Shown: piece after piece, positions 1 to 44,737 of the stretch
Layout of the letters: every line of letters begins with the position of its first letter
Position numbering within the stretch: position 1 is the stretch's first letter
NCBI GenBank assembly: GCA_025642075.2
Contig: JAODUO010000864.1
Coordinates: 62,001 to 126,000 of the forward strand
DNA length: 64,000 bases
Direction: 5' to 3'
Source: Ridgeia piscesae
Lineage: Eukaryota; Annelida; Polychaeta; Sabellida; Siboglinidae
The notes under the pieces: generated by a model
The model's database searches: none
What the model was told of the DNA's origin: nothing
The model's input: only the letters and a program-made list of their open reading frames with translations
Made by a program: the position numbers and the translations under genes

Positions 1-68
1 GACCTGTATGACCTGAGAGATTGTGACTGACCTGTACGACCTGAGAGATTATGACTCACCTGTATGAC
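1..68 (-). repeat. Short tandem repeat beginning at the exon 28 donor
   Basis: About 2.5 copies of a unit near 31 bp containing CCTGTATGACC or CCTGTACGACC. On the minus strand this is the GGGTCATACAGG at the exon 28 end and its GTCATA donor. The array continues off the left edge. Confidence 0.6.
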
Positions 69-3000
69 CCAAGTGAGCAGGTCTTTCTGTGGCTCATGCG
101 TGATGTTGGGGTGTCCGTTGAGTTGCTGTAGCATCTCCAGGATGTTGCTGTCTCCACCCAGTGCTCTGTCGATGAAGCCAAAGTTGTGGCCGGCGTCATG
201 GGCCCGCTGCTCTTCATACAGGGCCAGGCCAATCAGATGCAGCACCTGTCAGCATGTCAGCATGTCAGCACAGCTGTCAGCTCATGTCAGCACAAACTGT
301 CACATGTCAGCACAGCTTGTCATGCTACATGTCAGCACAAACTGTCACATGTCAGCACAGCTTGTCATGTTACATGTCAGCACAAACTGTCCATGTCAGC
401 ACAGCTTGTCATGCACATGTCAGACAAACTGTCACATGTCAGCACAGCTTGTCATGCTACATGTCAGCACAAACTGTCACATGTCAGCACAGCTTGTCAT
501 GACATGTCAGACAAACTGTCACATGTCAGCACAGCTTGTCATGTTACATGTCAGCACAAACTGTCACATGTCAGCACAGCTTGTCATGTTACATTGCGCA
601 CATGTCAGCACAGTGTCAGTACATGTCAGCACAACTGTCACGTCAGCACAGCTTGTCATGCAACATGTCAGCACAAACTGTCACATTAGTCAGCACAGCT
701 TGTCATGCCACATGTCAGAAGAAACTGTCAGCACATCAGCACAGCTTGTCATGTTACATGTCAGCACAGACTGTCACATTGTATGGCAGCATAAACAATC
801 ATGTTACATTGACTGCCTTATGACAGCGCAGTTTGTCAGGTTACATGTCAGCACAGACTGCTATGTTCAACGTTAGCACAGACTGTGACATGTTTGCATA
901 AACTGTCATGTTACACGTGAACACAGAATGTGACATTATATGCCAGCAGAGAATGTCACACTACATGTCAGCATAAACTGCCATGTTATAGGTCACAGTC
1001 ATTTCAAATACACAGACGTTACTACAAGTATGCTTACAGATCCTGATTTTCCATTTGGAGTACTGGCTAAGCCCTTCTTAAAATCCTGTTTCACAAAAAA
1101 GGTAAACCGTGTCTCAAATGACCTTTTAATTTTGTAAGGGCAAATGTTGTTTTTGCAAAAGAGTGGCATGTTTCAAAACGGCCACTCAGTTGGCAAGTTG
1201 CTTACTGCACCAGTGCCAGATGTTCACAGCCGAGTTCCAACATTTGAGATGCTGGTAAACGCTAACATGTCACATGACTTCACCTTCTCGAACTGCGTCT
1301 CCGACCACGACCTTGACCTCTTGGCAGTGGTTCGCTTGAGGAGTAGACGGATGAGGTAGAGCAGGAGGTCGGAGTGGAGCAGGTTGGTGACGGGGGTGTA
1401 CCCCGCTGCAAACGGGGGTGGCAACGGAGGGGGCAACGCTGCAACAAATGTGTGACATTGCAGTGTCACTGTAGAGTGGGTGGCGCAGAGGTAACACTTT
1501 GGACTCTCGACTAAGAGAACCCGGGTTCGAATGCTGTGCTGCGGTGTTAAAACCTTGGGGAAGTTTGTTCACTCTACATTGCTCTAGTTCACTCAGCTGT
1601 ATGAATGAGTACCTAGCGCTAGACAGTGGTGGATATTTGTGTGAGTAGCCTTCGTGTATTAATTGCAGCATGGCTGGATACTTCCCAGAGAATTTGATTG
1701 AACCGGTCTGCCAGGGAAGTAAAGTGTAAAGTACTTTGAGCAATCCTGAGGACTGGATAGTGCGCTATATAAGAACTTGCCTGTACCTTCATACCTCACA
1801 ACTGTCAGATAGACTTAATGGTGCCTAACAATGACATCTCAAAACAATAACAAATGTACACAGGTTGGCCATTTGTTTGACTATGTATTCAGTTGAATAT
1901 CTTACATAATAAATGTTTACTATTCGAGTTACAGAAATTTAATAATAATTTCTGTGATCGCATGTCTCGGACTGCGATAAACTTATGTCTGTGGTTGCAT
2001 TTTAATTATGTTCAAGAGACTACTTTTTTGTGTATACATAACTTTTATAAACTTAATTCATATATGCATTAATTGTCATACTATAAAATATTAATATTTC
2101 ACCGGCCTAATGATTACATTTTAACACAACTAGTTTCCAAAAGCAATGACAGTGTCACAGCGTCATAACATGACACAATTCGACATCAGTTTAGTTTCAA
2201 TCCTAACTGATCACACGTGACTACAACACATAAACTGAACAGTGGATGCTGCAGGACTCTTTAACAGTCAACCTTAACAAAGGCAAATAACAGCTTCAGA
2301 CATACGGCTTGGTCAGGTTGTGCTAGAGCCACCTACTGGCAAGTAGAACAGTTACACAAAAGGTTGGGGAGAAGCGAGGTAACTCACCCTCATCCTTATT
2401 CTCTGCCTTCTTCCTCTTTCTCTGCATCTCTTCCGACTGTCAACACAAGATACATTCTGTCACACAAAGACACACTTCGTCATAGTGACACTGATATAGC
2501 TACAGTCCAGTACAGTCAACTGTCACAACCAAACTAACAAGTCAGAGGTGGTGGCTGACTGCACCACCCCTGGCAGACATCCTACATAATGTATGGGAGT
2601 TAGCTGAATCAATTATACTTTGTCCTGATTTACGCAAGTGTGTTGTCGCCAACAACATGTTGACCATTCATATGCTTATGCAGACATGTTAAAGGGCATC
2701 TCCCGGATATCAAAAAATTATCAACCAGACCATTCCGCAGAAATACACCTTGTATCATGTGTACTTTCAAAACATCAGATGTAACATCAATCAGGATACA
2801 AACCCAAATTGATAATTAGGATAAGAACTAGATGACCAGGCAGACTTGATGGTTTCAAAGAGGTGATATACTGAGCATAACGATGACCGCATTCTGCCAA
2901 ATGTTGATAATATGTTACAATCTACGATTGATATTTGACTGCCAGCTAAATTTTGAATTTAAATAATGCATTGAACAAAACAATTCTTGAAATTTGCAAC

Positions 3001-6000
3001 AGACTTTTATCAACACACCAGATTTCGTTATAAAACATGACACGTCTTAATCATCGTATTGTCAGTTGTGATGTTTACCTTGGACTGTTCCGCCCGGGTG
3101 TAGTGATAGAAGAAAGGGTTGATAGTTTACCTTGGACTGTTCCGCCCGTGTGTAGTGATAGAAGAAAGGGTTGATAGTTTACCTTGGACTGTTCCGCCCG
3201 TGTGTAGTGATAGAAGAAAGGGTTGATAGTTTACCTTGGACTGTTCCGCCCGTGTGTAGTGGTAGAAGAAAGGGTTGATAGTTTACCTTGGACTGTTCCG
3301 CCCGCGTGTAGTGATAGAAGAAAGGGTTGATGGTTTACCTTGGACTGTTCCGCCCGCGTGTAGTGGTAGAAGAAAGGGTTGATGGTTTACCTTGGACTGT
3401 TCCGCCCGCGTGTAGTGATAGAAGAAAGGGTTGATAGTTTACCTTGGACTGTTCCGCCCGTGTGTAGTGATAGAAGAAAGGGTTGATAGTTTACCTTGGA
3501 CTGTTCCGCCCGGTGTAGTGATAGAAGAAAGGGTTGATAGTTTACCTTGGACTGTTCCGCCCGCGTGTAGTGGTAGAAGAAAGGGTTGATAGTTTACCTT
3601 GGACTGTTCCGCCCTTGTGTAGTGATAGAAGAAAGGGTTGATAGTTTACCTTGGACTGTTCCGCCCGCGTGTAGTGATAGAAGAAAGGGTTGATAGTTTA
3701 CCTTGGACTGTTCCGCCCGCGTGTAGTGATAGAAGGGTTGATAGTTTACCTTGGACTGTTCCGCCCTTGTGTAGTGGTAGAAGAAAGGGTTGTACTCCTG
3801 GTAACACTCAGGCTTCAGCTCATACATCCCCTTGCCAGTGGAACTCACAGGCTTCCTGGGAAGCACATCAACAGGTGTACACACTGACCTCAGGTATCAA
3901 ATGTGTATCATAAGAGTGACATCGAGGATGGCAGACATTTATCATTATGATGACATCAGTGAGGTCAGATGGTTATCTTTATGGTAATAATAATGACATC
4001 AGACTTTTACCATAATGGTGACATCAAAAAGGCAAATGTTTGTCATAGGTACATTGTAATGATGCTTATCATAATGGTGACATCATTGATGACACATTTA
4101 TCATAATGGTGACACCACATTGTCATGACCGCAGATGTCAATGTCAGACCTACATGAAGACACAGTTTACAGAGACTAGGGTGGCACTATGGGAGACCTA
4201 CTTGAAGACACAGTTTACAGAGACAGAGGGTGGCACTATGGGAGACCTACTTGAAGACACAGTTTACAGAGACAGAGGGTGGCACTATGGGAGACCTACT
4301 TGAAGACACAGTTTACAGAGACAGAGGGTGGCACTATGGGAGACCTACTTGAAGACACAGTTTACAGAGACATAGGGTGGCACTATGGGAGACCTACTTG
4401 AAGACACAGTTTACAGAGACAGAGGGTGGCACTATGGGAGTCCTACTTGAAGACACAGTTTACAGAGACAGAGGGTGGCACTATGGGATGACCCTACTTG
4501 AAGACACAGTTTACAGAGACAGAGGGTGGCACTATGGGAGACCTACTTGAAGACACAGTTTACAGAGACAGAGGGTGGCACTATGGGAGACCTACTTGAA
4601 GACACAGTTTACAGAGACAGAGGGTGGCACTATGGGAGACCTACTTGAAGACACAGTTTACAGAGACAGAGGGTGGCACTATGGGAGACCTACTTGAAGA
4701 CACAGTTTACAGAGACAGAGGGTGGCAATATGGGAGACCTACTTGAAAATAGCCACTTGTTGCACAACCTGGTCAATGCCTGTCTCATGGTATGGCTGAA
4801 ACACAACACAGCATGGTCATAACACACTCACAGCATGGTCACAACACACTCACAGCATGGTCATAACACACTCACAGCATGGTCACAACACACTCACAGC
4901 ATGGTCATAACACACTCACAGCATGGTCATAACACACAGCATGGTCATAACAGGCTCACAGTGTGGTCATAACACACACACAATGGTCATAACAGGCTCA
5001 CAGTGTGGTCATAACACACACACAATGGTCATAACAGGCTCACAGTGTGGTCATAACATCCTCACAGCATGGTAATAATATGCTCACAACAATGGCCATT
5101 ACACACTCACGGTATGGTCATAACATGCTCACAGTATCGTCATATGAACTTCACTTTACAGCTTTTTATTCAAAGTGCAGTAATGGCTTGTCTTAAATTA
5201 AGCTTAACTTAAATATATATAACCAATGTTATACTATCAACTGGCCTTATGCTATAAACTGTTATACCTCCAGATGCAGTTTGTTAGATCACACTAATAA
5301 TCACCCTATGTCAGAGACAATTTCTTATGGCACTACAGTGGAAGGCGACTGAGGTGTCTGTGTGGGGACATCAGTGATCTGTCACTGTCCTGTTCACACA
5401 CTGCATGGTGAATGGAGAGGTGTTTCAGGGGTCGGACCACACAATCAGGGTCCATGCTTACATTGGGTACAGTCTAATTGAGATCTTGACTTGTGACACA
5501 CTTTTACATAACACGAGATTACTTCACACCTTAATCATGTCTGTCATTCACAGTGACATCTACACCTACCTCATTCCATGTTGTCACAGCTGTCACACAT
5601 CTAGCATGACACACACATTTAACACATTGACACGTTGTCACATATTCTTATGCACAGTGACTACAGCTGGACCTTGTCATAATGTGGTCATCAGAGTCCA
5701 CGAAAAGGAACCATGTTATAAACAGGGCATGTCACAAATGTATTCCAGTCTATATTACTAGGGTGCCACCACCATGAAAAGTTCCACCAAAGCCAGTTTA
5801 AGATTGCCAACCAAAGTCAGTTTATTCCAAAATGCCATACATTGTCAAATGTAGAACTGAGTAAAATTCACAAATGATGTATAGATTTGAAATAAGTTAT
5901 GACTGAATGACGTAGTTCATGTATTCAAATGACTATTTATGGCACACTATTTTAGGCATAGAGAACATCGAACATTTGCAATGCACTGTTTACATGCCAT

Positions 6001-9000
6001 TTCAGATTATTGTTATAATGACCTTCCCTACCAAGGTGCATTAAAACATGTCATCTGATTTTAAGCAAGGATAATCAAATGTAATTTACAAGCTGGCGAG
6101 AGCACCAATTCACGGAAACCACGATGGACTGACAGGAGAGAATCACAATTGATGTTGGCACAAAACTAATAATACCTCGCTCGACACTTACTTTACCTAA
6201 AATTAGTTAGTTTTAAACATAGGACTGGTCACGTTTTAAAGAAACACTGAAAGTACATCATGCAAACCAGGTGCATTTATAAAATAGATAGGTATAAAAA
6301 AAGGACTAGTGCCATAGTGCTGATGGCAGAGCAGAAGCCAGAGGCAGAACCACCAATGGTAATTCAATTACATGCCCCAGTCCAGATTTGTTTCAGTTCA
6401 ATTTCTTGTCTGCCACCGCAAGTGTTTCAAGATACACCCATAAATGACAAAACTCAAGGATTATGTCACAAAACATGTGACAGTTAAGTTATTACAGCAT
6501 TATTATTAGACATAGTGCCCATTTCCCCTGGCAGCAAAAAAAAATGGGAGCCACGAAATGACCATATTATAACCCAATACACATTATATCCAGGCTTGAC
6601 AGTACATTGTTTAATGCAAGACCTTGCCTAGACCAACAAGCCTTATTACCGTACCTGCACATTGGCACCTTCCAGTGCAACTATGTGCACCAACTAAGAA
6701 AGAAAACGTGTACATTTAATTTTTTTAAGATTTTTCCAAATTCTGTATGACTTCAATAATTTAAGACATCTGACAAAATAGTAACAATATATTCAGTAAT
6801 AACACATTCAAATAACACAGAAATCAACACATACAGTCATTGTATATTCACATTGACACCATTTGAACACTTTCCCAATGACATGGCTGTAACAACACAT
6901 TTATAGCTACTGCACACACACTCACACACACACCACATGCAAATACAGATGGACGGACGGACGGACGGACGGACGGACGGACGGACGGACGGACGGACGG
7001 ACGACGGACGGACGGAGGACAGGACGGACGGACGGACGGACGGACACACATAACACATATGCATGCACGCAAGGACGCACACACATGCATAAACACACAC
7101 CAGCCTGTACACATGTCCACACACTGCGACTGAGAAGACTACAGTACTTACATTCTCTGGCAGTGACTTTGTGAGTTCGCTGTGAGCCATGGGATGGATA
7201 CAGAGCTGGTGGATGATCTCTCTCTTGATGGTGTCTTCTGACTCCACCTCTCCCACGCCCGGCTCATAGCGCTCACCTACGACATACCGTCTCACTTCAC
7301 CACCTGTCACCTTTGCCGGCTTTTGAATGTTATCTGTGCGAGGAGCTAAAGTGCTGCCACCTCACAGAGTCTGGGTGATCTAGGCTATGACACATGTGGG
7401 TGGTTCATTGGTGTTTTTCTATTCATGGAGCCACTGGCAGGTGGAATATGAACGGTTCTGGCATGTGACTGAATAGGTGAACATTTAAAAGTGGAGTGAT
7501 TCTTGTCCTGTGGGGTACACCAGTGGTGCCCAAACAATTCTGAAAATGTGTCCTTCCTGAGCCATTCTAGTGCGGTAGAGACTAACTATTATTTCATTAG
7601 TACTTCCAGGATACTGATCATTTATAAAGATAACTGTCATATTAGTATTTCAACAGCTCTGCAAAACATGTGGTATTATTCATGGAAAATGGAAGAAGAC
7701 ATTCTGACAGAGAAATGTTGGTTCATTTGTGTAAACACTAAACTATCATAATATGTTACAATGAAGATACTGTTACGTGACTAATCTAGGACAATAAAAT
7801 GGTAATGATTATATGACAACATTGTCACCTGACAAACGTATAACACGATGACACCATCATGTGACTAACCTATGATGATGATGAGTAGATTGAGGAACTC
7901 CTCTGCGAGTACAATCACCTGTCTCAGGCAGTCATCAGGTGAGCCGTCCTTGGTGACGACATCGTAGTCCTCCCTGTGACAGACACACTGCTGCAGGAAC
8001 ACGTTGACACTCACATCAAACACACTGCTGCAGGAACACGTTGACACTCACATCAAACACACTGCTGCAGGAACACGTTGACACTCACATCAAACACACT
8101 GCTGCAGGAACACGTCGACACTCACATCAAACACACTGCTGCAGGAACACGTCGACACTCACATCAAACACACTGCTGCAGGAACACGTGACACTCACAT
8201 CAAACACACTGCTGCAGGAACACGTCGACACTCACATCAAACACACTGCTGCAGGAACACGTGACACTCACATCAAACACACTGCTGCAGGAACACGTTG
8301 ACACTCACATCAAACACACTGCTGCAGGAACACGTCGACACTCACATCAAACACACTGCTGCAGGAACACGTCGACACTCACATCAAACACACTGCTGCA
8401 GGAACACGTCTGACACTCACATCAAACACACTGCTGCAGGAACACGTTGACACTCACATCAAACACACTGCTGCAGGAACACGTGACACTCACATCAAAC
8501 ACACTGCTGCAGGAACACGTCGACACTCACATCAAACACACTGCTGCAGGAACACGTTGACTCACATCAAACACACTGCTGCAGGAACACGTCGACACTC
8601 ACATCAAACACACTGCTGCAGGAACACGTTGACACTCACATCAAACACACTGCTGCAGGAACACGTTGACACTCACATCAAACACACTGCTGCAGGAACA
8701 CGTTGACTCACATCAAACACACTGCTGCAGGAACACGTTGACACTCACATCAAACACACTGCTGCAGGAACACGTTGACACTCACATCAAACACACTGCT
8801 GCAGGAACACGTCGACACTCACATCAAACACACTGCTGCAGGAACACGTCGACACTCACATCAAACACACTGCTGCAGGAACACGTCGACACTCACATCA
8901 AACACACTGCTGCAGGAACACGTCGACACTCACATCAAACACACTGCTGCAGGAACACGTCGACACTCACATCAAACACACTGCTGCAGGAACACGTCGA

Positions 9001-10845
9001 CTCACATCAAACACACTGCTGCAGGAACACGTCGACACTCACATCAAACACACTGCTGCAGGTTAACACGTCATGACTCACATCAAACACACTGCTGCAG
9101 GAACACGTCGACATCACATCAAACACAGTCACATGTGCCCAGCCCACCCTATCACTAAGTCATCAGTTTACAGTCATACTCACTAAGTCCATCAGTTTAC
9201 AGTCATACTCACTAAGTCCATCAGTTTACAGTCATACTCACTAAGTCCATCAGTTTACAGCCATACTCACTAAGTCCATCAGTTTACAGCCATACTCACT
9301 AAGTCCATCAGTTTACAGTCATACTCACTAAGTCCATCAGTTTACAGTCATACTCACCAAGTCTAGCAGTTTACAGCCATACTCACTAAGTCCATCAGTT
9401 TACAGCCATACTCACTAAGTCCATCAGTTTACAGCCATACTCACTAAGTCCATCAGTTTACAGTCATACTCACTAAGTCCATCAGTTTACAGTCATACTC
9501 ACTAAGTCCATCAGTTTACAGTCATACTCACTAAGTCCACAGTTTACAGTCATACTCACTAAGTCCATCAGTTTACAGTCATACTCACTAAGTCCATCAG
9601 TTTACAGTCATACTCACTAAGTCCATCAGTTTACAGTCATACTCACTAAGTCCATCAGTTTACAGTCATACTCACTAAGTCCATCAGTTTACAGTCATAC
9701 TCACTAAGTCCCTAGCCCGTCATACTTTTCCCAATTTACAGTCATACTCACTAAGTCCATCAGTTTACAGTCATACTCACTAAGTCCATCAATTTACAGT
9801 CATACTCACTAAGTCCATCATTTACAGTCATACCAGCCTCTACAGTCTACAGACAGTTTACAAGCCATACCCATCAAGGCCAATTACAGTTTACAGGCCA
9901 TAACTTCAAATCATTTGGGCCAATTTCAGTTTATCATGCCAGTCCATTCATTCATTTGGCCCAATTTCAGTTATACTCAGTTCCCTACATTCATTTATTC
10001 CATTTACAGTTTCAGTTGCATAACATTCTATCATTGGCCCAATTTACAGTTATACTCAGTTGACCCAGTCAACATTCATACTCATTTGGCCCAATTTACA
10101 GTTATACTCAGTTGACCCAGTCAACATTCATACTCATTTGGCCCAATTTACAATTATACTCAGTTGACCCAGTCAACATTCATACTCATTTGGCCCAATT
10201 TAAAGTTATACTCAGTTGACCCAGTCAACATTCATACTCATTTGGCCCAATTTACAGTTATACTCAGTTGACCCAGTCAACATTCATACTCACTTGGCCC
10301 AGTTGAGCAGAGAGAACTTGTTGAGCAGGTAGATGATGAACTCATTGCTGTCAATGAGGGCCGCCCCAGTCTACAACAGAATACAACCAGGTGACACACA
10401 AGGAAAACTATTCCTCAACAGGCCAAAGCTTCACGCATGGTAGAGTTTCAATTTTTTATTATGCCATTATTTGTCATTTTGCTCAAATTTCTGTGGAAAT
10501 AACTGACAGTTAACATTTTGAATTTTAAATCACATTCTGCAACTATTTGTTTCAGATGTCTAAATATTTATATATAGAATATTTATATACAGTTAACTTG
10601 TATGACCCCAAGCAGTATGAACAGACTTTTTTAAAACATGTTTTTCTATTCTATTACCTAAAATATCCGTGATGGTCTGCCTTCAAAGCTCATTTTGCAT
10701 AAACAGGTAACACTTCCATGCTTCCAAACTCCACAGCCATTGAAAAGTATAAAAAGTTTCAAACCATTCTGTTGACAAACATAACATGTGGCTACCCAAA
10801 AGGAACTGTTCAAATTCATGAAAGAAATGTTTGCAATTCTCTGTG

Positions 10846-10877
<32 letters not shown>

Positions 10878-13800
10878 TGCATGCATGCATGCGTGTGTGT
10901 GTTGAGGCCATATCAATCTGATGTCATGTCAATCTGAGGTCATATCTACATTGGAGTCATGTCTACATGGGGTCATGTCAACTCGAGGTGTTGGTGACCT
11001 ACCTGCAGCATTATGATGTCTTTGTCGTACATTTCTGAGCAGCATCTGACATTGTGGTAGAAGTAGATCTGTGACAACAGCAACAAATGAACTCAGATGT
11101 ACACCTCACACGACAAACACAGCACAACTCATCCCAACTTACATGTAATTTTTTCTACATGACAGAAATAGTATTTAGCCAAGTATGTGAAATGAGCATG
11201 TTGTCATGGTTGGTACATGTTCCTTATGAAATAAAAATAAATTGTTGTACACAACTGTTCCATGTCTAAAAAAGGTAATAAAGGACTTTGGACCAATACA
11301 AAAATCTGCATAACTCCCAAAGGTCACAAAATAACCTATGCTTTTACAATTTCAGAATATTCTGCAACAAGTGTGTTGGAATGTTTCATATGGCTCCTTT
11401 TTATGGGATTTTAATCCGTGTTTGTATTTATAAATAAGGCTGTTAAAAAGGGAAAACAGTGATTACATGCAACTCAATGGCCATGTTAAATACGGTCAAC
11501 TTTTTGGGTTACATTAACAACTCTTATCTACACTGTAGCGTGGCATCAACAGTGCTGTCACCTGGTTGAGAAGAGAGTAACCGTTCCTGCGCCACATTCC
11601 TGCCTGCGTCTGCGAAATAAGAACTTGCGTCCTCAGTGACGGCTCAATCAGATCGATAGCATTCACACGCTGCCAGGGATCATTGATTAGTTGTTGAGGA
11701 TCACAGTGGATCTGCCATTGCTGTAAACAACATGTGTGTTCATTGAAACTTGATCATAAAATCAACAATAATTGTTAATTCTTCAAGGTTATGGAGAGAA
11801 ATATTCACAAATCGCATATATTAAAATCTTACAAACTCAAAACCAAATGATGTACAAAGTGAAATGACTGTAGGACAAAACCACAAATGAGCGCTGGACT
11901 CTCAGACTGACCTGCCTGTGTGTCTGGCCAAAGGACAGTCCCAGCTTGTTGAGTCGCGGGTAGAGTCCAGCAAGTAACCGAGTGACCGGTCGATGGATGG
12001 ACACAGGTTGAGTGGACACATCGTACTTGATACAGGTTGCCTTCCACTGACCAACTGAAACCAATGACGTGACAAAGTGTGACCAGTGACGTCAGATCTG
12101 GCAACATGGGTAACACAAGCAGAGCCTGTCAGACATAACCCAATTGTCTGAGCATTTCACCAAAACAAAATAACAAATCTACAGAATTAAGCCAGGATAT
12201 CAGGAATATGTTTCTGTGTGAGAGAAATGTGAAACAAGAAAAGTAAAGGATGGATCCATGACTGCGTCAACACAGTGGAAGTCTAAAGGGGAATAAAATG
12301 CCTCTTTTTGTTTCTTTTCAACTAACCTTTAGTTACTACAATCAAGAAAAGTACCAGTAGTAGCAGGCCAGTAACAGAAAATCTGATGCCACCAATGTCT
12401 ACTCTCCCCAACCTTACATGTTCACAGTCACTTACACCTGTATGCCATACACACCTGTACACACTGTCGTACACACCTGTACACATTGTCACACACCTGT
12501 ACACAGTCGTATACACCCAGGGTTCATACACACAACTTGCAATTAAATTTAAGGGTTTTCAAGGGTTTTTCAAGGGTTTTCAAGTTGCCATTTTCAAGGG
12601 TAACCCAGTGTATAATTCACTTGCATTCTTTACCGAACCAGTCAAACAAAGAGTCAATCATTCCATACAAGGGTGTTTACATGTAATTGATCATGAGTGA
12701 AACATTTAAATAAATATTGACCAAGTTTATTAAGTTGTAATTGACTGTTTATTAAAAGTGTTAACAATTATGAAAAACAAACTAAACTAAATCTGGAAAA
12801 TTACTAGAAAGTTCATCACTGTTGCCAGTCACTGACTCATAGAGACTCTTAGAGAGTCACTGTTCAGGGTTTTAGTTCTTTGAGTTTGCAAACTGCTTCG
12901 GTGAAGTGTTCCCTCTTCTCCTTGGCCTTGGCAGACCGACGGAGAGCGTTGCTCTTAGCAACAAGGCTGAAGTCGCGCTTCTGCTCTGCAAAATCGGCAT
13001 CTTGCGGCACGAATGTTACCCTTTGGGTCACGACACACCCATTCTTTATACGCTGGCATCGTCAGCCATTCATCCTTGAATTTACATTTGCCTTTCTCCG
13101 GAGCCATGGTTACCAGTACACAAAAGATCTCAAGTTGTTTTGCAATAATAAATCTTTCCAAGATGGCAATGGGTGGTCACTTAATACCCGTATGTAACGT
13201 TACCCGTATGGTGAACTTATGGCGCCATCTAGCGGATAATTATCAAAACAATTGTTGGTCAACCTGACGCAGCAAGTCGTGTCTTGTCGATCGCCTTTAC
13301 TGGGTTTAGTTTTGTCTATATAAATGGTACATTTCCTTCCACATTTAATAAAAAAATTATGCCATGATACTGTTGAGATATAATAGCTTAGCTATATATT
13401 CAAAGCAAAAAACACATTTTCAAGGGTTTTGAAGGGTTTATTCTGAAACGGGTGATAATCAAGGGTTTTGAGGTACCCTTAAACGCGATTTCTTAATTCA
13501 AGAGTTTTTAAGGGTTTTCGGGGATCCGTGCGAACCCTGTATACACCTGTACACACTGTCATATACACCTGTACAGACTGTCATATACACCTGCACACAC
13601 TGTCATATACACCTGTACACACTGTCACACACACACATGTACACACTCATACACACCTGTACACACTGTCATACATACCTGTACACACTGTCATCTTGAC
13701 GGTATTGTCTCTACACTCCACGAGTGTATTGAGTGTTGCGGCAATGGCGTCTAACAACACTGTCTCCTGCAACAACACCAACACCAACAACACAGTATAA

Positions 13801-19800: not shown

Positions 19801-22800
19801 AAATTCAAAACGACATCTAGACGGGAACAACAGCATTTGTGGCTACTACTAAAATTATAAGTTTATTTCCCATAAAAGAATGAATCTGAGCAATTTTGAT
19901 ACCATAGTACCATTCATAAGATGTATATTGAAAGTGCCCCTACATGGCAGTGTGTTGGACTGGGACAAAGAGATGCGACACTTATCTATGACACACTTAA
20001 CCATGACACACTTATCCACGACACATGTATCCAAGACACACTTGTCCACGACACACTTATCCAAGACACACTTATCCATGACACGCTTATCCATGACACA
20101 CGTATCCACGACACACTTATCCATGACACACTTATCCACGACACACTTATCCACGACACACTTATCCACGACACACTTATCCACGACACACTTATCAACG
20201 ACACACTTATCCGTGACAGTGAGAAGATAACTTTGACAACTCACCCGGCCATGAAGAGTTGATGACTTTGGATTCTGGCCGCTGCAAAGACAAACATAAA
20301 TAATATTATAAGCTTGACGTCACAAGTCAACACTCCGAGCCACAAACACCTCAAGTCTAACAAACAACTGACCCATCCAACATCTGATGACAACAGTGAC
20401 TGGGCAGCTGTCAAAATTAGATGCCAAACGCGCAGGGCAATAATTGCCCATATATATTAGTTATCTCAATATCATGGCATACAAAAGCTTAATTTAGACT
20501 GTGTGTATGATTCTGATCATGACATCAACAAAGTACACCTCACTGGACCCATCAGTTGGTCAGTCTAGATGAGAAAGGCAGCATGATATTTAGAGACACA
20601 AAGTTAATTTGATCAAAGTTTGAATCTACTTGTTGCCAGCCATGGGAACTTCACTTTGTCACAGTCGCACATTCGTTCAATTACAGTAATACTTGCACAA
20701 CATGCACACCCTGTACAGGGGTCTCAACTGCCCTGACATGTTTTATGAGGGGGACTAACCTTTCCAGAGCTTCGTGTCTGCCAGCATCATCCTCTCAACC
20801 ACAGAGAAAGCTCCCGCACTGGCCGCCTGCATGGACAGCTGACAGAACAGTTGGCGCAGACCATCTGTAGCCACAACAGTCTCTTACAACATCTCACTTC
20901 AGTTCAAGGTCAACGTCAGTTATACACATTTATCTTATGTCATGTTTGTGCAAACAAATTTTTACAATTATTACAACAATTACTTTGCTAAACACAGAAA
21001 CAACAAGGATGAGATCTGACCTTGTCAAAAGACCAAGAGTTGACAGATGACATTCTGACTGTCCTGACTGAGAGATGATATCCTGATTGACCTGACTGAG
21101 AGATGACGTCCTGACTGATCCGATTGCGAGATGACGTCCTGACTGACCTGACTGAGAGATGAAGTCCTGATTGACATGAGAGATAACGTCCTGACTGATC
21201 TGACTGAGAGATGACATCCTGACTGACCTGACTGCGAGATGACATCCTGATTGACATGAGAGATAACGTCCTGACTGATCTGACTGAGAGATGATATCCT
21301 GATTGACCTGACTGAGAGATGACGTCCTGACTGATCCGATTGCGAGATGACGTCCTGACTGACCTGACTGAGAGATGAAGTCCTGATTGACCTGACTGAG
21401 AGATGACATGTTGACTGATCTAACTAAGAGATGACATGTTGACTGATCTGACTGAGAGATGACATCTTGACTGATCTGACTGAGAGATGACGTCCTGACT
21501 GAGATGACATCCTGACTGACCTGACTGCAAGATGACGTCCTGACTGACCTGACTGCGAGATGATGACCTGACTGACTGACTGAGAGATGACGTCTTGATT
21601 GACCTGACTGAGAGATGACGTCCTGACTGCGAGATGACGTCCTGACTGACCTGACTGCGAGATGATGTCCTGACTGACCTGACTGAGAGATGACGTCCTG
21701 ACTGACCTGAGAGATGACGTCCTCACTGATCTGACTAAGAGATGACATCTTGACTGAGAGATGACATCTTGAATGATCTGACTGAGAGATGGCGTCCTGA
21801 CTGAGATGACGTCCTGACTGATCTGACTGTGAGATGACGTCCTGACTGACCTGACTGCGAGATGACATCCTGACTGACCTGACTGAGAGATGTCGTCCTG
21901 ACTGACCTGACTGCGAGATGAAGTCCTGACTGACCTGACTGAGAGATGGCGTCCTGACTGAGATGAAGTCCTGACTGACCTGACTGAGATGACGTCCTGA
22001 CTGACCTGACGAGATGACGTCCTGACTGACCTGACTGTGAGATGACGTCCTGACTGTGAGATGAAATCCTGTCTGACCTGACTGAGAGATGACGTCCTGA
22101 CTGAGATGAAGTCCTGACTGACCTGACTGAGAGATGGCGTCCTGACTGAGATGAAGTCCTGACTGACCTGACTGAGATGACGTCCTGACTGACCTGACTG
22201 TGAGATGACGTCCTGACTGTGAGATGAAATCCTGACTGACCTGACTGAGAGATGACGTCCTGACTGAGATGAAGTCTTGACTGACCTGACTGAGATGACG
22301 TCCTGACTGACCTGACTGAGAGATGACGTCCTGACTGTGAGATGAAATCCTGACTGACCTGACTGAGATGACGTCCTGACTGACCTGACTGCGAGATGAA
22401 GTCCTGACTGACCTGACTGAGAGATGACGTCCTGACTGACCTGACTGAGAGATGACGTCTTGTAGCCAGTAGAGGATCTTGAGAGCGAACTGCTGATGTC
22501 CAACGACAGAGGAGTGCATGACACGAACTAGCAGCGGGTTGCTGCCCAGACGAGACGTGTTCTTCTACAACAACAGCGTCTCTCATGTGACACACGGCGG
22601 TCATGTGACAATGACTCAGGTCACATGACTGTCACGTGACAGGGACTCAAGTCACACGGGTATCATTACTGGAATACAAAAGTAATGAATCGCTTATATT
22701 CATCAACATGCTACTCATTTAACCACCTGTTGACGACTGATGGTGATGGTGATATGACTGATGATGGTGATATGACTGATGATGGTGATATGACTGATGA

Positions 22801-25800: not shown

Positions 25801-28332
25801 TAGGGACTGTACGGTAGTGACATAGCATGACAGGTCACATAAAAGTGCCACATATGCAGCATTCATGTGACACTCTACTCAATCAGGCAGGCAAAAACCT
25901 GACAGACGTCAGACAATATAAAAACATTGTCTGGCGTGATAATGACTCATTGACAGTAATGTATGCTTGCGGGGCATATACATGCAAATGTCTGTGTTAG
26001 TGTGCTTACCTTGAATATTTGACTGCGAGTCTAATATGCACTACTCAATCATGACAGAGACAGTATTAGGTTCTGACCATGTACATGTGTCTTTTACATG
26101 ATCTACTCTAACAATGTTGCGGTGCTCACTTTACACCGGTGAACCTGTTACTATATTTACCTTTCACCAGTAGGTTTATGTTAAGGTACACATATCTGTG
26201 AGTCTTATGTCTTACTAGTTACTAGTTAGGATGCTTACCTTATATATGTATTTCTAAGTTAGGTGCTTATCTTGTACCTGTGTATCTCTATGTCTTAGTG
26301 CATACAGTTTACCTTGTACATATATGTCTCTGTGTTAGAGTCCTTACCTCATATCTGCATGTTTCTATGCTATGGTACGTACCTTGTATCTATGAGTCTT
26401 ATGGGCACTGTTTTGGAAACATTCAATGCACAACACACATGTTGGATCCATGCCACAGTCTCTGTGAAACACAAAACATAATCATTTATTCACTAAACAA
26501 AAATAAACAAACTAATTTATCTCTAGGCACAATTACATTCAAGGTAGCAACTGGGTAATAATTATGTAGATGCTGTTATAATCAATAACGTGGCTACTTT
26601 AAAAGCAGCTATAAAATATATTTAAAACAACACATTTTCATAATATTTACCCTACACTTAAGAAATACTTCAATGGCACCAATACTGATGGAATTAAATT
26701 ACTTAGATAGTTGCCAGATCAATGTGATGCGAAAGTCATCCACGTTAGACAGAAAAATCAATACATTACACAGCTGAAGCGGATATACTAGGGAACTAAG
26801 GAATATCTAAAAGATAGGTTTAAGATAACACTAACAGTTGTTCAAAATACAAGAGCATCTAAAAATCATGACACAACATATGTACACATTTCTTAATTAG
26901 GTGCATGTTACCTGCAGGCATACGTGGGTTCTCCATTCTTGAAGACTTTGCCACACAACTGAGGTGGACTGTCAAGGTCCTTCAGTTGACGAAAGACAAC
27001 GACGGGATCACCCCCACACAGAAACACCTCAAGGGGTTTGAAGAGGATACGGCGTGCTCGCCTCTCTTCCCGCCCCTGGTCAGCGTCCAGGAGGGCGCTG
27101 TAGACAAACGGCACATACTGCGCCCAGTGCTGGTATAGGGCATTCTTTAGTTGGCCCGACTCGTAGCCTTGAAGAAATTGCTACACAAAGAACAACACAG
27201 ATGTGGCATCAATTCCATAACTTAACTGATGTTCTCCAATCAATTCCAAATGTTGAAAATGCCCTGATTTAAAAAAGCGTCTAGCATAATTAATGTATGT
27301 ATGAAACCAAAATAAGTATATGTTTTAACATTTATGATATTTCTAGCATTTTAATTCTAAACATACACATTATTTAAAGGTAATTGCATACTGACATAGT
27401 AAAGGTCTACTGATTTGTATATTTTATATGTGATAATAACTATAACCAGATCTTTGAAGGAACACGTGTGACCATGGCAACCTCGGGGTACAATTGTACA
27501 CAAAATGTTGCTTTATCTATTGGTTGGTTACTGGTCATGCCTATGTGTTTTGATTAAGACAACAATCTTCAGGATATCGGAGGTTCCACTTTGAGATCAC
27601 ATTTCACTAGCGTGAAAATGTTGATTATTGTGGTTAATGAGTAGTTCGCACCGACTTGTTTTGCTGCATAATACCAAAACATTCACATAATCATGAGATT
27701 TTTGTTTCAGTTTTTGTTTTGACTTGAGAAGTTAACTCGGCCTGTCACAGTTAAACATTCAACTCGTCACTCCAGTCTGCAATGCATAGACATAATTTAT
27801 ACAGCTCTTTTGAATGTTAATGCAACAATTTATGCATGTAGCCATAAGTATTGAATGCAAAAAGATATACCCCCATGAAAATAATATTTCAAAACGCAAA
27901 ATAGGCAAAATAGTAGACGTAGTGCAATGAAAAGGTAAGGTATACCAATGAAAATTTAAACTACACTCCTTATGTTTATTTCAACAGATGTACTGAGCAA
28001 ATTATATTAGAAAATGCAAATGCATACCATATAGCCCATGTAAGTTTCTGCACAAAACTCAAAAGAATGACAATCAATATGTTTATGCAAATATTTTTGG
28101 CATCGATAAGTCGCTGTCAGTGTCATCGCTGGCATATGCAAGATAATGCGTACAAGCATAAACAAACGGTAAATGCACAGTTATTACCGCCAACTGCTTG
28201 TAGGTAAAGCGCAACGGTTAACAATAAGATGACATAATAATCTATGCAATATACTCTGTACTATATACTCACTGATTGTACGCCTTCAGGATTAAATTCT
28301 TGAACTACATCCCCAAACCTACTCCCATCCAT
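69..28332 (-). CDS. UBR2: UBR1/UBR2-type N-recognin E3 ubiquitin ligase, N-terminal ~989 codons (28 exons; 3' end outside window)
   Basis: This ligase recognises N-degrons: it binds basic or bulky N-terminal residues and ubiquitinates the substrate together with an E2. Exons on the minus strand, high to low: 28273-28332, 26912-27180, 26383-26461, 24385-24492, 23766-23957, 23472-23549, 22971-23033, 22441-22564, 20760-20864, 20245-20281, 19680-19731, 18855-18953 or 18714-18812, 16570-16653, 15988-16066, 15493-15598, 13988-14116, 13679-13766, 11912-12054, 11562-11720, 11003-11068, 10294-10370, 7870-7973, 7152-7276, 4743-4795, 3750-3855, 2388-2436, 1284-1438, 69-245. All have GT-AG borders and all phases chain except at exon 13, which is one base short. 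Landmarks similar to vertebrate UBR1/2 are [52 protein letters not shown] and GMYELKPEC. Invertebrates usually have one UBR1/2 gene, so the symbol marks the family, not strict orthology to UBR2. The RING and autoinhibitory domains should lie left of position 1. Confidence 0.95.
246..870. repeat. Minisatellite starting at the UBR exon 28 acceptor
   Basis: About 25 copies of a 22-23-bp subunit of type CATGTCAGCACAAACTGTCA, often paired as a 45-bp higher unit with GCACAGCTTGTCATG. It starts at the acceptor. On the minus strand each unit holds TGCTGACA-type words similar to the acceptor CTGACAG. The ORFs in it are artefacts. Confidence 0.85.
871..1283. other. Intron sequence, no gene
   Basis: Degenerate flank of the preceding minisatellite up to about 980, then ordinary AT-rich intron sequence up to exon 27. 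Nothing else seen. Confidence 0.6.
1473..1790 (+). mobile_element. tRNA-derived SINE
   Basis: The head has a pol III A-box-like GTGGCGCAGAGGTAACA (1480-1496) and a B-box-like GGGTTCGAATGC (1523-1534), the spacing of a tRNA gene, followed by a tRNA-unrelated body. The tail contains AAAGTACTTTGAGCAATC and GTGCGCTATATAAGAAC, a common animal SINE 3' motif. It sits in the UBR intron between exons 26 and 27. Confidence 0.7.
1800..2387. other. Intron, AT-rich, no feature seen
   Basis: Unique AT-rich sequence between the SINE and exon 26. No exon-like or repeat structure noted. Confidence 0.6.
2388..7973 (-). CDS. UBR2: Winged-helix region exons (22-26) of the UBR ligase
   Basis: Exons 7870-7973, 7152-7276, 4743-4795, 3750-3855 and 2388-2436. 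Exon 23 reads [20 protein letters not shown], followed by [19 protein letters not shown]. This is the conserved segment ahead of the RING end that structural work on UBR1 describes as winged-helix-like. Exon 24 (53 nt) reads [15 protein letters not shown]. Exon 25 reads [17 protein letters not shown] and [10 protein letters not shown]. Exon 26 is a basic stretch ([15 protein letters not shown]) ending G|GTGAGT in phase 1. Exons 24 and 25 both run straight into minisatellites built from their own ends. Confidence 0.9.
3075..3800 (-). repeat. 52-bp minisatellite made of UBR exon 25 end plus its splice donor
   Basis: About 13-14 tandem copies of a 52-bp unit. On the minus strand each unit encodes [14 protein letters not shown] (or a fragment) directly followed by GTAAACTATCA, the exon 25 end and donor. 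The first unit (about 3750-3791) is the real exon end; the rest are intronic copies. One unit near 3700-3749 is 48 bp (a 4-bp loss), so it is in frame with the exon. Confidence 0.92.
4140..4742 (-). repeat. 49-bp minisatellite abutting the exon 24 donor
   Basis: About 12 copies of a 49-bp unit. On the minus strand each unit has TTCAAGTAGGTCTCCC, the last five bases of exon 24 plus its GTAGGT donor. The array begins exactly at the real donor (4742). Copies are nearly identical, so amplification is recent. Confidence 0.9.
4803..5140. repeat. 22-24-bp minisatellite next to the exon 24 acceptor
   Basis: About 14 copies of a unit of type CTCACAGCATGGTCATAACA, starting about 8 bp past the acceptor of exon 24. 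The copies become degenerate toward 5140. Confidence 0.85.
5141..6900. other. Intron, no gene recognised
   Basis: Mostly unique AT-rich sequence. A 118-codon ORF at 5405-5761 (plus) has no domain and no splice context and is taken as chance. Nothing else recognised. Confidence 0.5.
6948..7045. repeat. (ACGG)n tetranucleotide microsatellite
   Basis: About 22 units of ACGG (GGAC) with two small interruptions near 7000-7022, flanked by CA-rich sequence. It gives an apparent VRPS-repeat ORF on the minus strand that is not a gene. Confidence 0.95.
7315..7385. repeat. Dispersed repeat copy (shared with 43575-43630 and 43905-43955)
   Basis: Three places share AATGTTATCTGTG-type and GTGCTGCCACCTCACAGAG-type words. 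The copies are diverged and 50-70 bp long, in different introns, so they are pieces of the same interspersed element. The family was not identified. Confidence 0.4.
7386..7869. other. Intron, no feature seen
   Basis: Unique AT-rich intron sequence between exons 22 and 23. Confidence 0.6.
7984..9128. repeat. 37-bp minisatellite next to the exon 22 acceptor
   Basis: About 31 copies of a 37-bp unit with ACTCACATCAAACACACTGC followed by TGCAGGAACACGTCG. Some units lose 2-4 bp (GTGACACT or GTTGACTC variants). It starts within about 10 bp of the acceptor. Units are nearly identical, a sign of recent expansion or gene conversion. Confidence 0.95.
9155..9830. repeat. 29-bp minisatellite
   Basis: About 23 copies of a 29-bp unit of type ACTCACTAAGTCCATCAGTT then TACAGTCAT. 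On the minus strand each unit contains GTGAGT, a perfect 5' splice-site hexamer. One interruption near 9710-9735. Confidence 0.95.
10030..10293 (-). repeat. 52-bp minisatellite derived from the exon 21 end and donor
   Basis: About five copies of a 52-bp unit containing CATACTCATTTGGCCCAA. On the minus strand this is TTGGGCCAAATGAGTATG, the exon 21 end (TGGGCCAA) plus its GTGAGT donor, with GT changed to AT in the copies. The real donor lies at 10288-10293. Confidence 0.85.
10371..10840. other. Intron, no feature seen
   Basis: AT-rich unique sequence between exons 20 and 21. Confidence 0.6.
10841..10905. repeat. (TG)n/(TGCG)n microsatellite
   Basis: Mixed GTGT, GCGT and GCAT tetranucleotide units. 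Confidence 0.9.
12518..13539. mobile_element. Non-autonomous hAT-like DNA transposon with 8-bp target duplication
   Basis: A 1022-bp element flanked by the perfect 8-bp duplication TATACACC (12510-12517 and 13540-13547). Termini are inverted: CAGGGTTCATAC on the left and CAGGGTTCGCAC on the reverse complement of the right. Both ends hold runs of AAGGGTTTT subrepeats. Inside, on the minus strand (12864-13107), is a broken reading frame starting [15 protein letters not shown], then CRFC, then after a frameshift [19 protein letters not shown]. That resembles the zinc-finger-like N-terminus of a transposase-derived protein; no catalytic domain is present. It interrupts the minisatellite downstream of UBR exon 17. 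Confidence 0.8.
12864..13107 (-). pseudogene. Frameshifted zinc-finger-like ORF remnant inside the hAT-like element
   Basis: Starts [20 protein letters not shown] and continues to [10 protein letters not shown]; then the frame shifts to [20 protein letters not shown] and ends KELKP. A CxxC pair is visible, but the expected distal His or Cys ligands fall at or after the frameshift. Likely a relic of a transposon-encoded DNA-binding domain. Confidence 0.5.
14120..14279. repeat. Degenerate minisatellite flanking the foldback element (left)
   Basis: Degenerate units of type GTGACACAAGGGG-TTAGTGAC. The same family continues right of the element at 15084-15215, so the element inserted into an array. 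Confidence 0.6.
14289..15074. mobile_element. Foldback/Mutator-like element with subrepeat-built long inverted repeats and 9-bp target duplication
   Basis: A 786-bp element between two perfect copies of GATATACTG (14280-14288 and 15075-15083). Left arm about 14289-14440, right arm about 14890-15074. The arms are inverted copies, collinear over more than 100 bp, each made of about ten 14-18-bp subrepeats of the type GACATTTTGGTAAC or GACATTTCGGTAAC. The centre (14440-14890) has no long ORF. Nine-base duplications are typical of Mutator-like elements, and subrepeat-rich long inverted repeats are typical of foldback elements. It lies in the UBR intron between exons 15 and 16, inside a degenerate GTGACACAAGGG minisatellite. 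Confidence 0.8.
15084..15215. repeat. Degenerate minisatellite flanking the foldback element (right)
   Basis: Units such as GACACAAGGGAGTCAGTGAG, the same family as 14120-14279. Confidence 0.6.
15599..15670 (-). repeat. Short tandem copies of the exon 15 acceptor region
   Basis: About two further copies of a 30-38-bp unit (ATGTCACCACCAGTGT, ACACATACC) directly after the acceptor of exon 15. They include the exon start plus acceptor-like GCAGG or TTTCAGG on the minus strand. Confidence 0.5.
16570..16653 (-). CDS. UBR ligase exon 13 with apparent 1-nt deletion
   Basis: After the TTCCCAG acceptor the frame reads ARMLVTGN and then meets a stop. The second part of the exon reads [16 protein letters not shown] in another frame. 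Exon 12 ends in phase 0 and exon 14 needs an incoming phase 1, so the exon should be 85 nt; it is 84. A single missing base near ACAGGGAAC explains everything. A partial copy of the exon start just upstream (ending at 16710) reads ARMLITE with an intact GAG codon, suggesting that the lost base belongs there. This is either an assembly error in a local duplication or a real lesion. Confidence 0.75.
16654..16745 (-). repeat. 57-bp duplication of the exon 13 acceptor and exon start
   Basis: The segment around the acceptor and first codons of exon 13 is repeated once upstream, with a second exon start at 16710. The distance between the two exon starts is 57 bp (19 codons). A third, shorter remnant (GTGATCTCCGTCC) follows. 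Confidence 0.75.
16746..17690. other. Intron, no gene recognised
   Basis: AT-rich unique sequence. A small ORF on the minus strand near 17196-17384 has no splice context or domain. Confidence 0.5.
17700..18190. repeat. Degenerate ~50-bp tandem repeat
   Basis: About three clear 53-bp copies with TTGTTCTTGACATATTAGTG at 18010-18160, and older diverged copies (GACATATCA, ACACCAAGACC) back to 17700. The nearest exon is 500 bp away, so no splice link is claimed. Confidence 0.6.
18714..18812 (-). CDS. UBR ligase exon 12b (second of two homologous alternative exons)
   Basis: This 99-nt exon has a TTTGTAG acceptor and a TTG|GTAGGT donor, phase 0 at both ends. It reads [17 protein letters not shown] and then [16 protein letters not shown]. 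It is open in frame, with the same length and phases as exon 12a, and is closer to the vertebrate UBR pattern. The intron to 12a is only 42 bp (18813-18854). Including both exons would keep the frame but is unlikely for lack of intron length. Confidence 0.85.
18855..18953 (-). CDS. UBR ligase exon 12a (first of two homologous alternative exons)
   Basis: This 99-nt exon has a CCACCAG acceptor and a CTG|GTAGGT donor, phase 0 at both ends. It reads [17 protein letters not shown] and then [16 protein letters not shown]. It follows exon 11 (ending QFAVLFAK) and occupies the family segment with the pattern DDH...SV...SVQxFT.PTL. Exon 12b, 42 bp further downstream, encodes the same 33 positions, with 19 identical. 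Copy 12a has the more derived residues of the two, such as C and N replacing charged positions. Confidence 0.85.
18954..19679. other. Intron between exons 11 and 12a, no third exon copy seen
   Basis: AT-rich unique sequence with one small direct duplication near 19395-19460. It was searched by eye for another copy of exon 12; none was found. Confidence 0.5.
19977..20213. repeat. 15-bp minisatellite
   Basis: About 16 copies of ACGACACACTTATCC (with ATGACACAC variants), 30 bp from the exon 10 donor. Because 15 is a multiple of three, it gives repetitive pseudo-ORFs on both strands (VVDKC, THLST). Confidence 0.95.
20282..20759. other. Intron, no feature seen
   Basis: Unique sequence between exons 9 and 10. 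Confidence 0.6.
21045..22440 (-). repeat. 28-bp minisatellite made of UBR exon 8 end plus its splice donor
   Basis: About 48-50 copies of a 28-bp unit (with 16-18-bp short variants). On the minus strand each unit has GACGTCATCTCTCAGTCAG directly followed by GTCAGT, i.e. the exon 8 end (encoding DVISQS) plus the real donor. The array starts exactly at the real donor (22435-22440) and runs about 1.4 kb. The units have no stops in the minus-strand frames, producing pseudo-ORFs of 289-529 codons. Confidence 0.95.
22441..23957 (-). CDS. UBR2: ClpS-like adaptor domain exons (exons 5-8) of the UBR ligase
   Basis: Exons 23766-23957, 23472-23549, 22971-23033 and 22441-22564 encode the ClpS-like part that in UBR1/2 contacts bulky hydrophobic (type 2) N-degrons. 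Visible motifs are [18 protein letters not shown], then [19 protein letters not shown], then ATTVDRE. Exon 8 ends WLQDVISQS with a G|GTCAGT donor. That border is required because it alone gives phase 1, to join exon 9 (DGLRQLFCQ) and match the family pattern WLxxxIxxSDGLR. The 28-bp minisatellite that follows is made of copies of this exon end. Confidence 0.9.
22736..22812. repeat. 18-bp minisatellite
   Basis: Four copies of TGATGATGGTGATATGAC in the intron between exons 7 and 8. Confidence 0.85.
23104..23420. repeat. 31-bp minisatellite
   Basis: About ten copies of a unit with CTAGGCCTTTTATCACACAC then CATTCACACAT, in the intron between exons 6 and 7. Confidence 0.9.
24385..27180 (-). CDS. 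UBR2: UBR-box zinc-finger exons (exons 2-4) of the UBR ligase
   Basis: Three exons (26912-27180, 26383-26461, 24385-24492) encode the UBR box, which binds type 1 (Arg, Lys, His) N-degrons. The reading gives [15 protein letters not shown], then [16 protein letters not shown], then SAHKTHRYK, then [15 protein letters not shown] and PFCNVHKKG. These supply the Cys and His ligands expected for the three zinc ions and the acidic pocket residues (DPTC, DCGD). Nothing appears to be missing. Splice phases are 2, 0 and 0. The intron after exon 3 has degenerate repeats resembling the exon-3 end plus its donor (see 25990-26382). Confidence 0.93.
24493..25989. other. Intron, no gene recognised
   Basis: AT-rich unique sequence. 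Small ORFs have no domain or splice support. Confidence 0.5.
25990..26382 (-). repeat. Degenerate repeats resembling exon 3 end plus donor
   Basis: At least six diverged units of about 50 bp containing GTGCTTACCTTGTAC-type words. On the minus strand these are TACAAGGTAAGCAC-like, resembling the exon 3 end (CATAGATACAAG) plus donor GTACGT. This looks like an old array of the same kind as those after exons 8 and 25. Confidence 0.55.
27181..28272. other. First UBR intron, no feature seen
   Basis: AT-rich unique sequence of 1.1 kb. No repeats or exon-like stretches noticed. Confidence 0.5.
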
Positions 28333-41532: not shown

Positions 41533-41574
<42 letters not shown>

Positions 41575-44377: not shown

Positions 44378-44424
<47 letters not shown>

Positions 44425-44737
44425 ATGTGTGTTCATGCGTAAATGCATGAGTGTGCATGTGCGTACGCACGTGTGTGAGTACTCACCATCCACCCCCCGC
44501 TCCCTGTTGCCATGTCACAGTACACATCCAGCGGTTTTCTGTGCGGGTACACGACGTAAACACCGCTGGCTGTCCCACCGCCGCCGTGCTGGACGTCAAC
44601 ACAGTCCACCGCTGGACACACAAACGTATTACAACAACACACACTTCTTCTAAAAACATTGCTATAGCTGCACCAGCAGTCTGGAATCAATTCCCTATAA
44701 TTATAAAAATCATTTAAACTATTCGAAAGAAATTCAA

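Follow-up and report, generated by a model that had tools for sequence, protein, structure and literature searches.

Along a UBR2 gene of the siboglinid annelid Ridgeia piscesae, minisatellite arrays meet exon borders more often than chance predicts, and at many of these borders the repeat units are derived from the border itself. We read the arrays, with a probability of roughly 0.7, as mirage-type minisatellites that would be tolerated by-products of border duplication, the exon copy acting as a lasting seed. The DNA analysed, called the window below, is a stretch of 64,000 nt (forward-strand positions 62,001 to 126,000) forming part of contig JAODUO010000864.1 (C864) of the 628-Mb genome assembly GCA_025642075.2. 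UBR2 exons 1–28 lie in it on the minus strand at positions 60-28332, and the exon model of this part comprises 29 exons when the alternative exons 12a and 12b are both counted. The gene extends left past the window edge, ends at C864:39294 and contains ~44 introns as a whole.

Tandem Repeats Finder (TRF) reported 30 merged arrays in window 1-28400. Two further tests were made on the borders themselves. The border test, which does not depend on TRF, compares the 24-mer at each border with the adjoining intron over at most 400 nt (49 nt in the case of exon 28), other introns serving as the null; a third test sets the sum of five matches against 200 Markov resamplings at 12 selected borders. The arrays and repeats at UBR2 borders in the window are as follows.

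1..69 (-), exon 28 donor array: 28-bp units of 10 exon + 18 intron nt; exon 28 is 60-245; border test P 0.0025
255..791 (-), exon 28 acceptor-side array: a 9-bp gap separates it from the exon; above every null pair in the border test
2437..2474 (-), exon 26 acceptor repeat: a 20-bp unit in 1.9 copies, next to the exon and confined to the intron
3069..3792 (-), exon 25 donor array: 14 units of 52 bp, 41 exon + 11 intron nt; exon 25 is 3750-3855
4146..4747 (-), exon 24 donor array: 49-bp units of 5 exon + 44 intron nt; exon 24 is 4743-4795
4800..5144 (-), exon 24 acceptor-side array: 16 units of 22 bp, 4 bp from the exon; weak border similarity
7983..9127 (-), array before exon 22: 31 units of 37 bp, with 9 bp between array and exon
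9152..10303 (-), exon 21 donor stretch: proximal 26/52-bp array at 10022-10303 (11 exon + 15 intron nt), decayed middle, distal 29-bp array; exon 21 is 10294-10370
12448..13694 (-), exon 17 donor array: 22-bp units of 16 exon + 6 intron nt; exon 17 is 13679-13766
15585..15669 (-), exon 15 acceptor array: 2.6 units of 31 bp, overlapping the exon by 14 nt
16635..16749 (-), exon 13 acceptor duplication: 2 units of 57 bp, overlapping the exon by 19 nt
21041..22459 (-), exon 8 donor array: ~50 units of 28 bp, 19 exon + 9 intron nt; exon 8 is 22441-22564
25980..26390 (-; approximate limits), old decayed array after exon 3; exon 3 is 26383-26461

Most of these had been noticed in a first-pass annotation of the same DNA. 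The donor arrays of exons 8 (28 bp), 24 (49 bp) and 25 (52 bp) lie where it had put them; those of exons 17 and 21 are also present, but with units of 22 bp instead of 23 and of 26/52 bp instead of 52. Its statement that units carry the end of the exon stands at six donors, although exon-24 units hold only 5 exon nt. The exon 28 donor array, which it had likened to the others, does resemble them; the window edge truncates it, and 38 bp more follow outside, up to C864:61963. The old array suspected after exon 3 was missed by TRF even at score 30, only a 7-bp repeat being reported there, and is recovered by the summed similarity (67 vs 45.1 ± 4.0, maximum 57; border test P 0.025). Arrays near the acceptors of exons 28, 24 and 22 do start within 10 bp, but the exon-22 array is unlike the border it adjoins: in the Markov resampling it shows no similarity to that border (P = 0.99), and it holds no exon sequence. 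Within window 7974-9140 the donor-like TGTGAGTG occurs 26 times and the acceptor-like CTGCAG 31 times, most 37-bp units holding both. The two-copy repeat at the exon 26 acceptor was absent from the first-pass annotation and gave no signal (border test P 0.15, Markov resampling P 0.50).

The border test singles out the donors of exons 8, 17, 21, 24, 25 and 28 among 29 donors (P <= 0.0025), and the acceptors of exons 13, 15 and 28 among 28 acceptors exceed every null pair, in keeping with the acceptor duplications proposed at exons 13 and 15. Weaker values were obtained for the exon-24 and exon-2 acceptors (P 0.011) and for the exon-3, -15 and -22 donors (P 0.025). In the summed test, the exon-24 acceptor reached 59 vs 46.9 (0 of 200 resamplings as high), followed by the exon-16 acceptor (P 0.005), the exon-22 donor (0.01), the exon-2 acceptor (0.075) and the exon-15 donor (0.175), with no signal at the donors of exons 6, 10 and 20 or at the acceptors of exons 22 and 26.

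Array positions agree with these comparisons. In the first half of UBR2, 12 of 30 arrays overlap an exon border or come within 10 bp of one, against 3.8 expected under free placement (a count not reached in any of 4000 runs) and 3.2 under rigid rotation (none reached 12). Placing each array within its own intron gives 4.2 expected vs 11 of 29 observed (P = 0.00075). Overlaps of at least 5 bp number 8 of 30 vs 2.8 expected (P = 0.004), or 7 of 29 vs 3.1 under the own-intron null (P = 0.024).

The same holds for the second half of the gene, outside the window on which the first-pass claim of border preference was made: 7 of 19 arrays lie within 10 bp of a border vs 1.9 expected (P = 0.00125; the exon-28 array is counted in both halves). 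Over the 17 introns of this half, donors 28 and 31 and acceptors 34 and 39 exceed every null pair in the border test, and the intron 32 donor gives P 0.015; the borders of intron 38 were set by hand because automatic assignment failed on its array. Found here are a donor array after exon 31, to which TRF also fits an 83-bp unit, and acceptor arrays at exon 30 (two copies, border test P = 0.022), exon 34 (units with few exon bases only) and exon 39. Taken over the complete gene, 18 of the 48 arrays meet a border, whereas 7.8 would be expected if arrays were free to extend across borders to a depth of at most 45 nt (P = 0.0002); under the same null, overlaps of at least 5 nt number 11 vs 5.7 (P = 0.02). 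A null confined to introns, applied to the 46 arrays with a period of at least 10, expects 1.84, and none of 20,000 runs was as high. The border excess in UBR2 therefore ranges from 2.3-fold to ~10-fold, depending on what counts as neutral. Spread into exons is limited, as had been proposed: no UBR2 array reaches more than 43 nt into any exon. Two very large intron arrays, of 33 bp x 111 (C864:45720-49359) and 47 bp x 62 (C864:40851-43766), lie beyond the 10-bp limit, at 16 bp from exon 41 and at 64 bp from exon 42, respectively.

Border arrays also occur in other genes. The second gene of the window, on the plus strand, we take to be NUDT14-like; no Pfam family was found for it. It has a decayed donor array at 30347..30452 (+), exon 2 being 30313-30356. 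The summed similarity at this donor is 83 vs 38.4 ± 3.6 (maximum 48 in 200 Markov resamplings) and its P is 0.025 in the single-best-match test, which gives P 0.23-0.75 for the other 7 borders of the gene. VCP was chosen before any inspection of its locus; our model has 15 introns, protein ends excluded, and 5 arrays inside. At the acceptor of exon 7 (model numbering) it carries ~53 copies of a 51-bp unit that pairs the acceptor with GTAAGT. Weak signals appear at two of the other 14 VCP acceptors (P = 0.005 and 0.014) and at none of the 15 donors. The phenomenon is therefore not confined to UBR2, and with the three genes pooled 20 of 56 arrays with a period of at least 10 are border arrays vs 9.4 expected (P = 0.0003); a border preference is shown in UBR2 only.

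What the copied splice sites do was assessed from their retention. With the real donor included, GT is kept in 14/14 copies at exon 25, 13/13 at exon 24, 3/3 at exon 28, 17/18 after exon 31 and 7/7 at exon 17, plus 4/4 in a part of that array severed by an insertion, and AG is kept in 51/53 copies of the VCP array. Arrays contain 44 donor-like sites that score at least the median of real donors (5.5 per kb) vs 12 outside (0.7 per kb), the antisense control giving 2 and 9; at the lower-quartile threshold there are 108 (13.6 per kb) vs 79 (4.6 per kb), a count to which the exon-22 array contributes 30 sites. Such figures would suit functional decoys, rows of equal splice sites that tune how the host gene is spliced or how much mRNA it yields, a role that the first-pass annotation had raised. 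However, high GT retention tracks the uniformity of the whole unit (mean column identity 99% at exon 24 and 97% at exon 25) and therefore need not reflect selection. The statement that every unit carries exon end and donor is borne out at exons 25, 24 and 17 but not at exon 8, where 34 of 55 copies keep GT and 21 have lost it, nor in the proximal exon-21 array, where it is kept in 1/11 (the real one) and replaced in the other 10 by CT (5), AT (4) or a deletion (1). On these losses we rejected the simple reading that GT is kept by selection. The lack of likeness between the exon-22 array and its border also speaks against decoys. A decoy role is possible, unsupported, and in our estimate quite unlikely: the exon 21 array spread without GT, and the duplicated donors (GTACGT at exon 3, GTCAGT at exon 8, GTATGT at exon 17, GTGAGT at exon 21, GTAGGT at exon 24, GTAAAC at exon 25 and GTGAGT at exon 28) share, by eye, no special motif. 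A single splice motif as array seed was rejected on the same list.

With column identities reaching down to 86% at exon 8, and the exon 3 array lying below TRF detection, arrays of all ages are present. Intron 21 shows a succession, from a uniform proximal array without GT through decayed copies to a uniform distal 29-bp array, which in our reading may belong to the same family as the proximal one; 23 GTGAGTATG sites, the real donor among them, lie in window 9131-10310. The exon 17 array is interrupted at window 12518-13539 by an insert of 1022 bp, which has CAGGGTTC/GAACCCTG ends, is flanked by the 8-bp target duplication TATACACC and is presumably a hAT-like element. In intron 15, an element with long inverted repeats (window 14297-15068; 108-nt arms, 89% complementary) sits between decayed repeat stretches near the exon-16 acceptor.

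These histories bear on whether an assembler has stretched or collapsed ordinary repeats. Such arrays are hard to assemble, one amphioxus globin mirage is, in the part of PMC3087553 that treats it, apparently misassembled in the draft genome, and exon 13 has a frame problem beside its duplication. Exon 13 (window 16570-16653, -) is out of frame from exon 12 at the homology-defined donor, leaving 18 stops in the whole reading, and the frame is open only with the exon-12 donor shifted 4 nt further; this may be a real variant, an alternative donor or an assembly error. For the arrays, an artefact is highly improbable. Copies differ in ordered ways, the exon 17 array has received an insertion with its own target-site duplication, arrays occur in three genes on two contigs, and the exon-39 unit is repeated in a predicted protein from a separate genome, that of the siboglinid Lamellibrachia satsuma.

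The exon 39 acceptor array consists of ~9 in-frame 57-bp units, keeps AG in 9/9 and is open in frame throughout. At the same site the predicted L. satsuma protein has 3 copies of a matching 18-aa unit vs ~9 of a 19-aa unit here, and the repeat is absent from the Lingula, scallop and mussel proteins, the three, out of eight further proteins, in which the region was readable; with the repeat in both tubeworms, the array is either common to both or arose twice. Distinct substitutions among copies are synonymous in 6/7 cases at exon 39 (23% expected, P = 0.0009; 3/4 and P = 0.042 for changes seen twice only) and 4/4 at exon 25 (26% expected, P = 0.0045), without bias at exon 8 (6/19), exon 17 (1/3) or VCP (3/8). 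The bias at exons 25 and 39 was spotted by eye before testing and these P values are uncorrected. Translation of the copies would explain it at exon 39; at exon 25, where the 52-bp unit shifts the frame, re-seeding from the exon would. As a general mark of the exon as source the bias fails, since it appears in only 2/5 arrays.

Another rival is intron birth in progress (the Rogers model), in which border copies are becoming new introns or exons. The VCP and exon-22 units, each pairing an acceptor-like with a donor-like site, are consistent with it, as is the exon-39 array, in frame over its full length and present in the predicted L. satsuma protein. Most arrays, however, lie wholly within existing introns, and we consider this explanation very doubtful.

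We favour instead the reading of the arrays as tolerated by-products of border duplication. Slippage or unequal repair would first duplicate in tandem a short stretch straddling an exon border. Such a duplication would be tolerated because the exon-side splice site still yields the right mRNA and the extra copies are intronic, while duplications inside exons would be purged; this fits the coding frame. The array would then grow, be homogenised in blocks and decay, as the structure of the copies suggests. Border arrays would also outlast ordinary intron arrays, because the exon-side copy, being under selection, cannot be deleted and the seed is retained. The copied splice sites would mostly be by-products and not a regulatory device. 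Several observations support this sequence. At a number of unrelated borders the units join the end of the exon to its donor, or the acceptor to the start of its exon; the border excess is found in both halves of UBR2; the exon 21 array spread without GT; and the range of array ages, the two uniform blocks of intron 21, the insertion in the exon 17 array, the differing copy numbers at exon 39 in two tubeworms and the array in VCP point the same way.

The protein evidence is compatible with it. The window-encoded UBR2 protein contains UBR box and ClpS domains. Among the best 120 of 1104 matches (7992 candidates scored), L. satsuma UBR2 is 82% identical over 65% of the query, further top matches come from molluscs, a nemertean, a brachiopod and Owenia at up to 57% identity, and Branchiostoma UBR2 reaches 51%. 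All 30 scored genome matches to L. satsuma UBR2 (of 42 candidates) fall on C864, and so the search gave neither a UBR2 paralogue nor a second haplotype. When exons are joined at their exon-side sites, the reading aligns unbroken to the predicted L. satsuma protein at the arrayed joints 17/18, 21/22, 24/25, 25/26 and 28/29, the L. satsuma model stopping short of exon 8; because exon ends were placed by homology, this is only a consistency check.

Several results weigh against our reading. That the exon-side splice sites are the ones used is deduced solely from homology. When true overlaps are counted by themselves, the second half of UBR2 gives no significant excess (3 vs 1.4 expected, P = 0.16). 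NUDT14 and VCP together have 2/15 border arrays vs 2.45 expected (P = 0.75), showing no excess. Near-exclusively synonymous differences between copies in two of the five arrays compared (exons 25 and 39) are unexpected under free decay. Finally, the 2.3-fold excess over the free-crossing null is left unexplained by duplication and tolerance alone, although part of this roughly 2-fold excess could be explained by survival. Given the size of this excess and its absence from the other two genes, the first-pass verdict that the pattern is too regular for random birth is not supported.

The main rival for the border excess is a mutational hotspot: exon edges, through their AG/GT motif, R-loops or a nucleosome edge, would duplicate more often, and no survival effect would be needed. 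The excess over even the most generous null accords with this, as do inner short repeats at some borders, such as CAGTCAGGTCAGTCAGG at exon 8. The duplicated donors, however, have no shared special sequence (judged by eye, without statistics), donor and acceptor sides of introns are both affected, and NUDT14 and VCP show no excess, so that we regard a hotspot as unlikely.

By the features examined here, the arrays appear to belong to the mirage kind. Mirages are described, in the passages of PMC3087553 that concern them, as duplications of intron-exon boundaries that resemble minisatellites, known in amphioxus first from Adh3 and later from globin genes, affecting both borders, with AG/GT in many but not all units and with length instability; the RT-PCR cited there suggests undisturbed splicing. 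The relevant part of PMC3902484 adds PGBD5 and cites TnC, and both sources describe homogenisation of copies inside clusters. Compared with these accounts of Adh3, the globins BflGb6 and BflGb9, and PGBD5, the units here likewise straddle the border (5-41 exon nt plus splice site in donor units), both sides are hit (UBR2 donors 3, 8, 17, 21, 24, 25, 28 and 31; acceptors 13, 15, 30 and 39), and many but not all UBR2 units keep AG/GT. Mirage units of ~10-160 bp are reported there; most here measure 22-57 bp, 83 bp being also fitted after exon 31. As for length, exon 39 has ~9 copies in this genome and 3 in the protein predicted for L. satsuma. For the amphioxus globins the cited RT-PCR speaks for normal splicing; here splicing is seen only indirectly, in a protein reading that matches a relative's predicted protein. 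The differences lie in the host, a siboglinid annelid, in the 8 donor and at least 4 acceptor borders affected in one gene, and in copy number, up to ~53 here vs the 6 and 3 units given for two BflGb6 haplotypes. New, then, are the phylum, the density and the VCP example. Among the matches listed in open-access full-text literature there was no report of border arrays in annelids, and the parts of the Ridgeia genome paper available to us are silent on them.

Other systems resemble these arrays less closely, as far as the sections of each source that treat them go. In human duplicated genes, internal tandem repeats with ~30-bp units lie at exon-intron boundaries and can alter splicing (PMC2812944); they are recent, belong to segmental duplications, and may be retained or spliced out in transcripts, whereas the genes here are single-locus and the repeats are apparently removed with the intron. 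In intron gain by tandem duplication in potato RdRp (PMC4974935) and Drosophila (PMC2891723) the duplicated segment also bears splice signals and in potato crosses an intron-exon boundary, but there one duplication yields a new intron, while here there are long arrays with no new intron apparent. Earthworm metallothionein genes contain minisatellites that are, as here, annelid and intronic (PMC12783039); their monomers are longer, ~180 bp on average, and placement at exon borders is not stated in the part concerned. Introners are related intron-making elements inserted in many genes; the UBR2 units differ per border and match their own exon.

Some observations on UBR2 and its surroundings stand apart from the arrays. 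Exon 12 is doubled (12a/12b, window 18714-18812 and 18855-18953, -, spaced by 42 nt); the two share 19/33 residues and 60/99 nt and are probably mutually exclusive, and the L. satsuma UBR2 model contains 12a only. That predicted protein (P0004) lacks about the first ten exons, and its residues 1-95 read like a translated tandem repeat of ~37 bp, so that its start seems to be an array annotated as exon. Open frames at window 29444-29852 (+) with an FADDT motif resemble a reverse transcriptase. A Fibrinogen_C domain gene lies in three pieces at window 40901-44600 (-), and its 4 tested borders gave nothing clear (P 0.05, 0.05, 0.63 and 0.85). Elsewhere, an AAA-type gene on two contigs (L036 on C118 and L037 on C4406; 96.4% identity over 4 kb) likely represents two haplotypes, which would make this a very heterozygous genome; the pair, compared as haplotypes, is without a large array.

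More speculatively, and with no more than tentative belief on our part, splice junctions might be preferred genome-wide for the birth or survival of minisatellites, the selected exon copy permanently re-seeding the array; some arrays, such as the in-frame 57-bp one of UBR2 exon 39, might then be translated to differing extents and give protein length variants. The arrays extend a curiosity of amphioxus to a distant animal phylum and show the density that is possible in essential genes. They would be natural test objects for how the spliceosome chooses among dozens of equal neighbouring sites, and a possible source of intron-exon drift. For gene prediction they are a warning, as such arrays can be annotated as exons.

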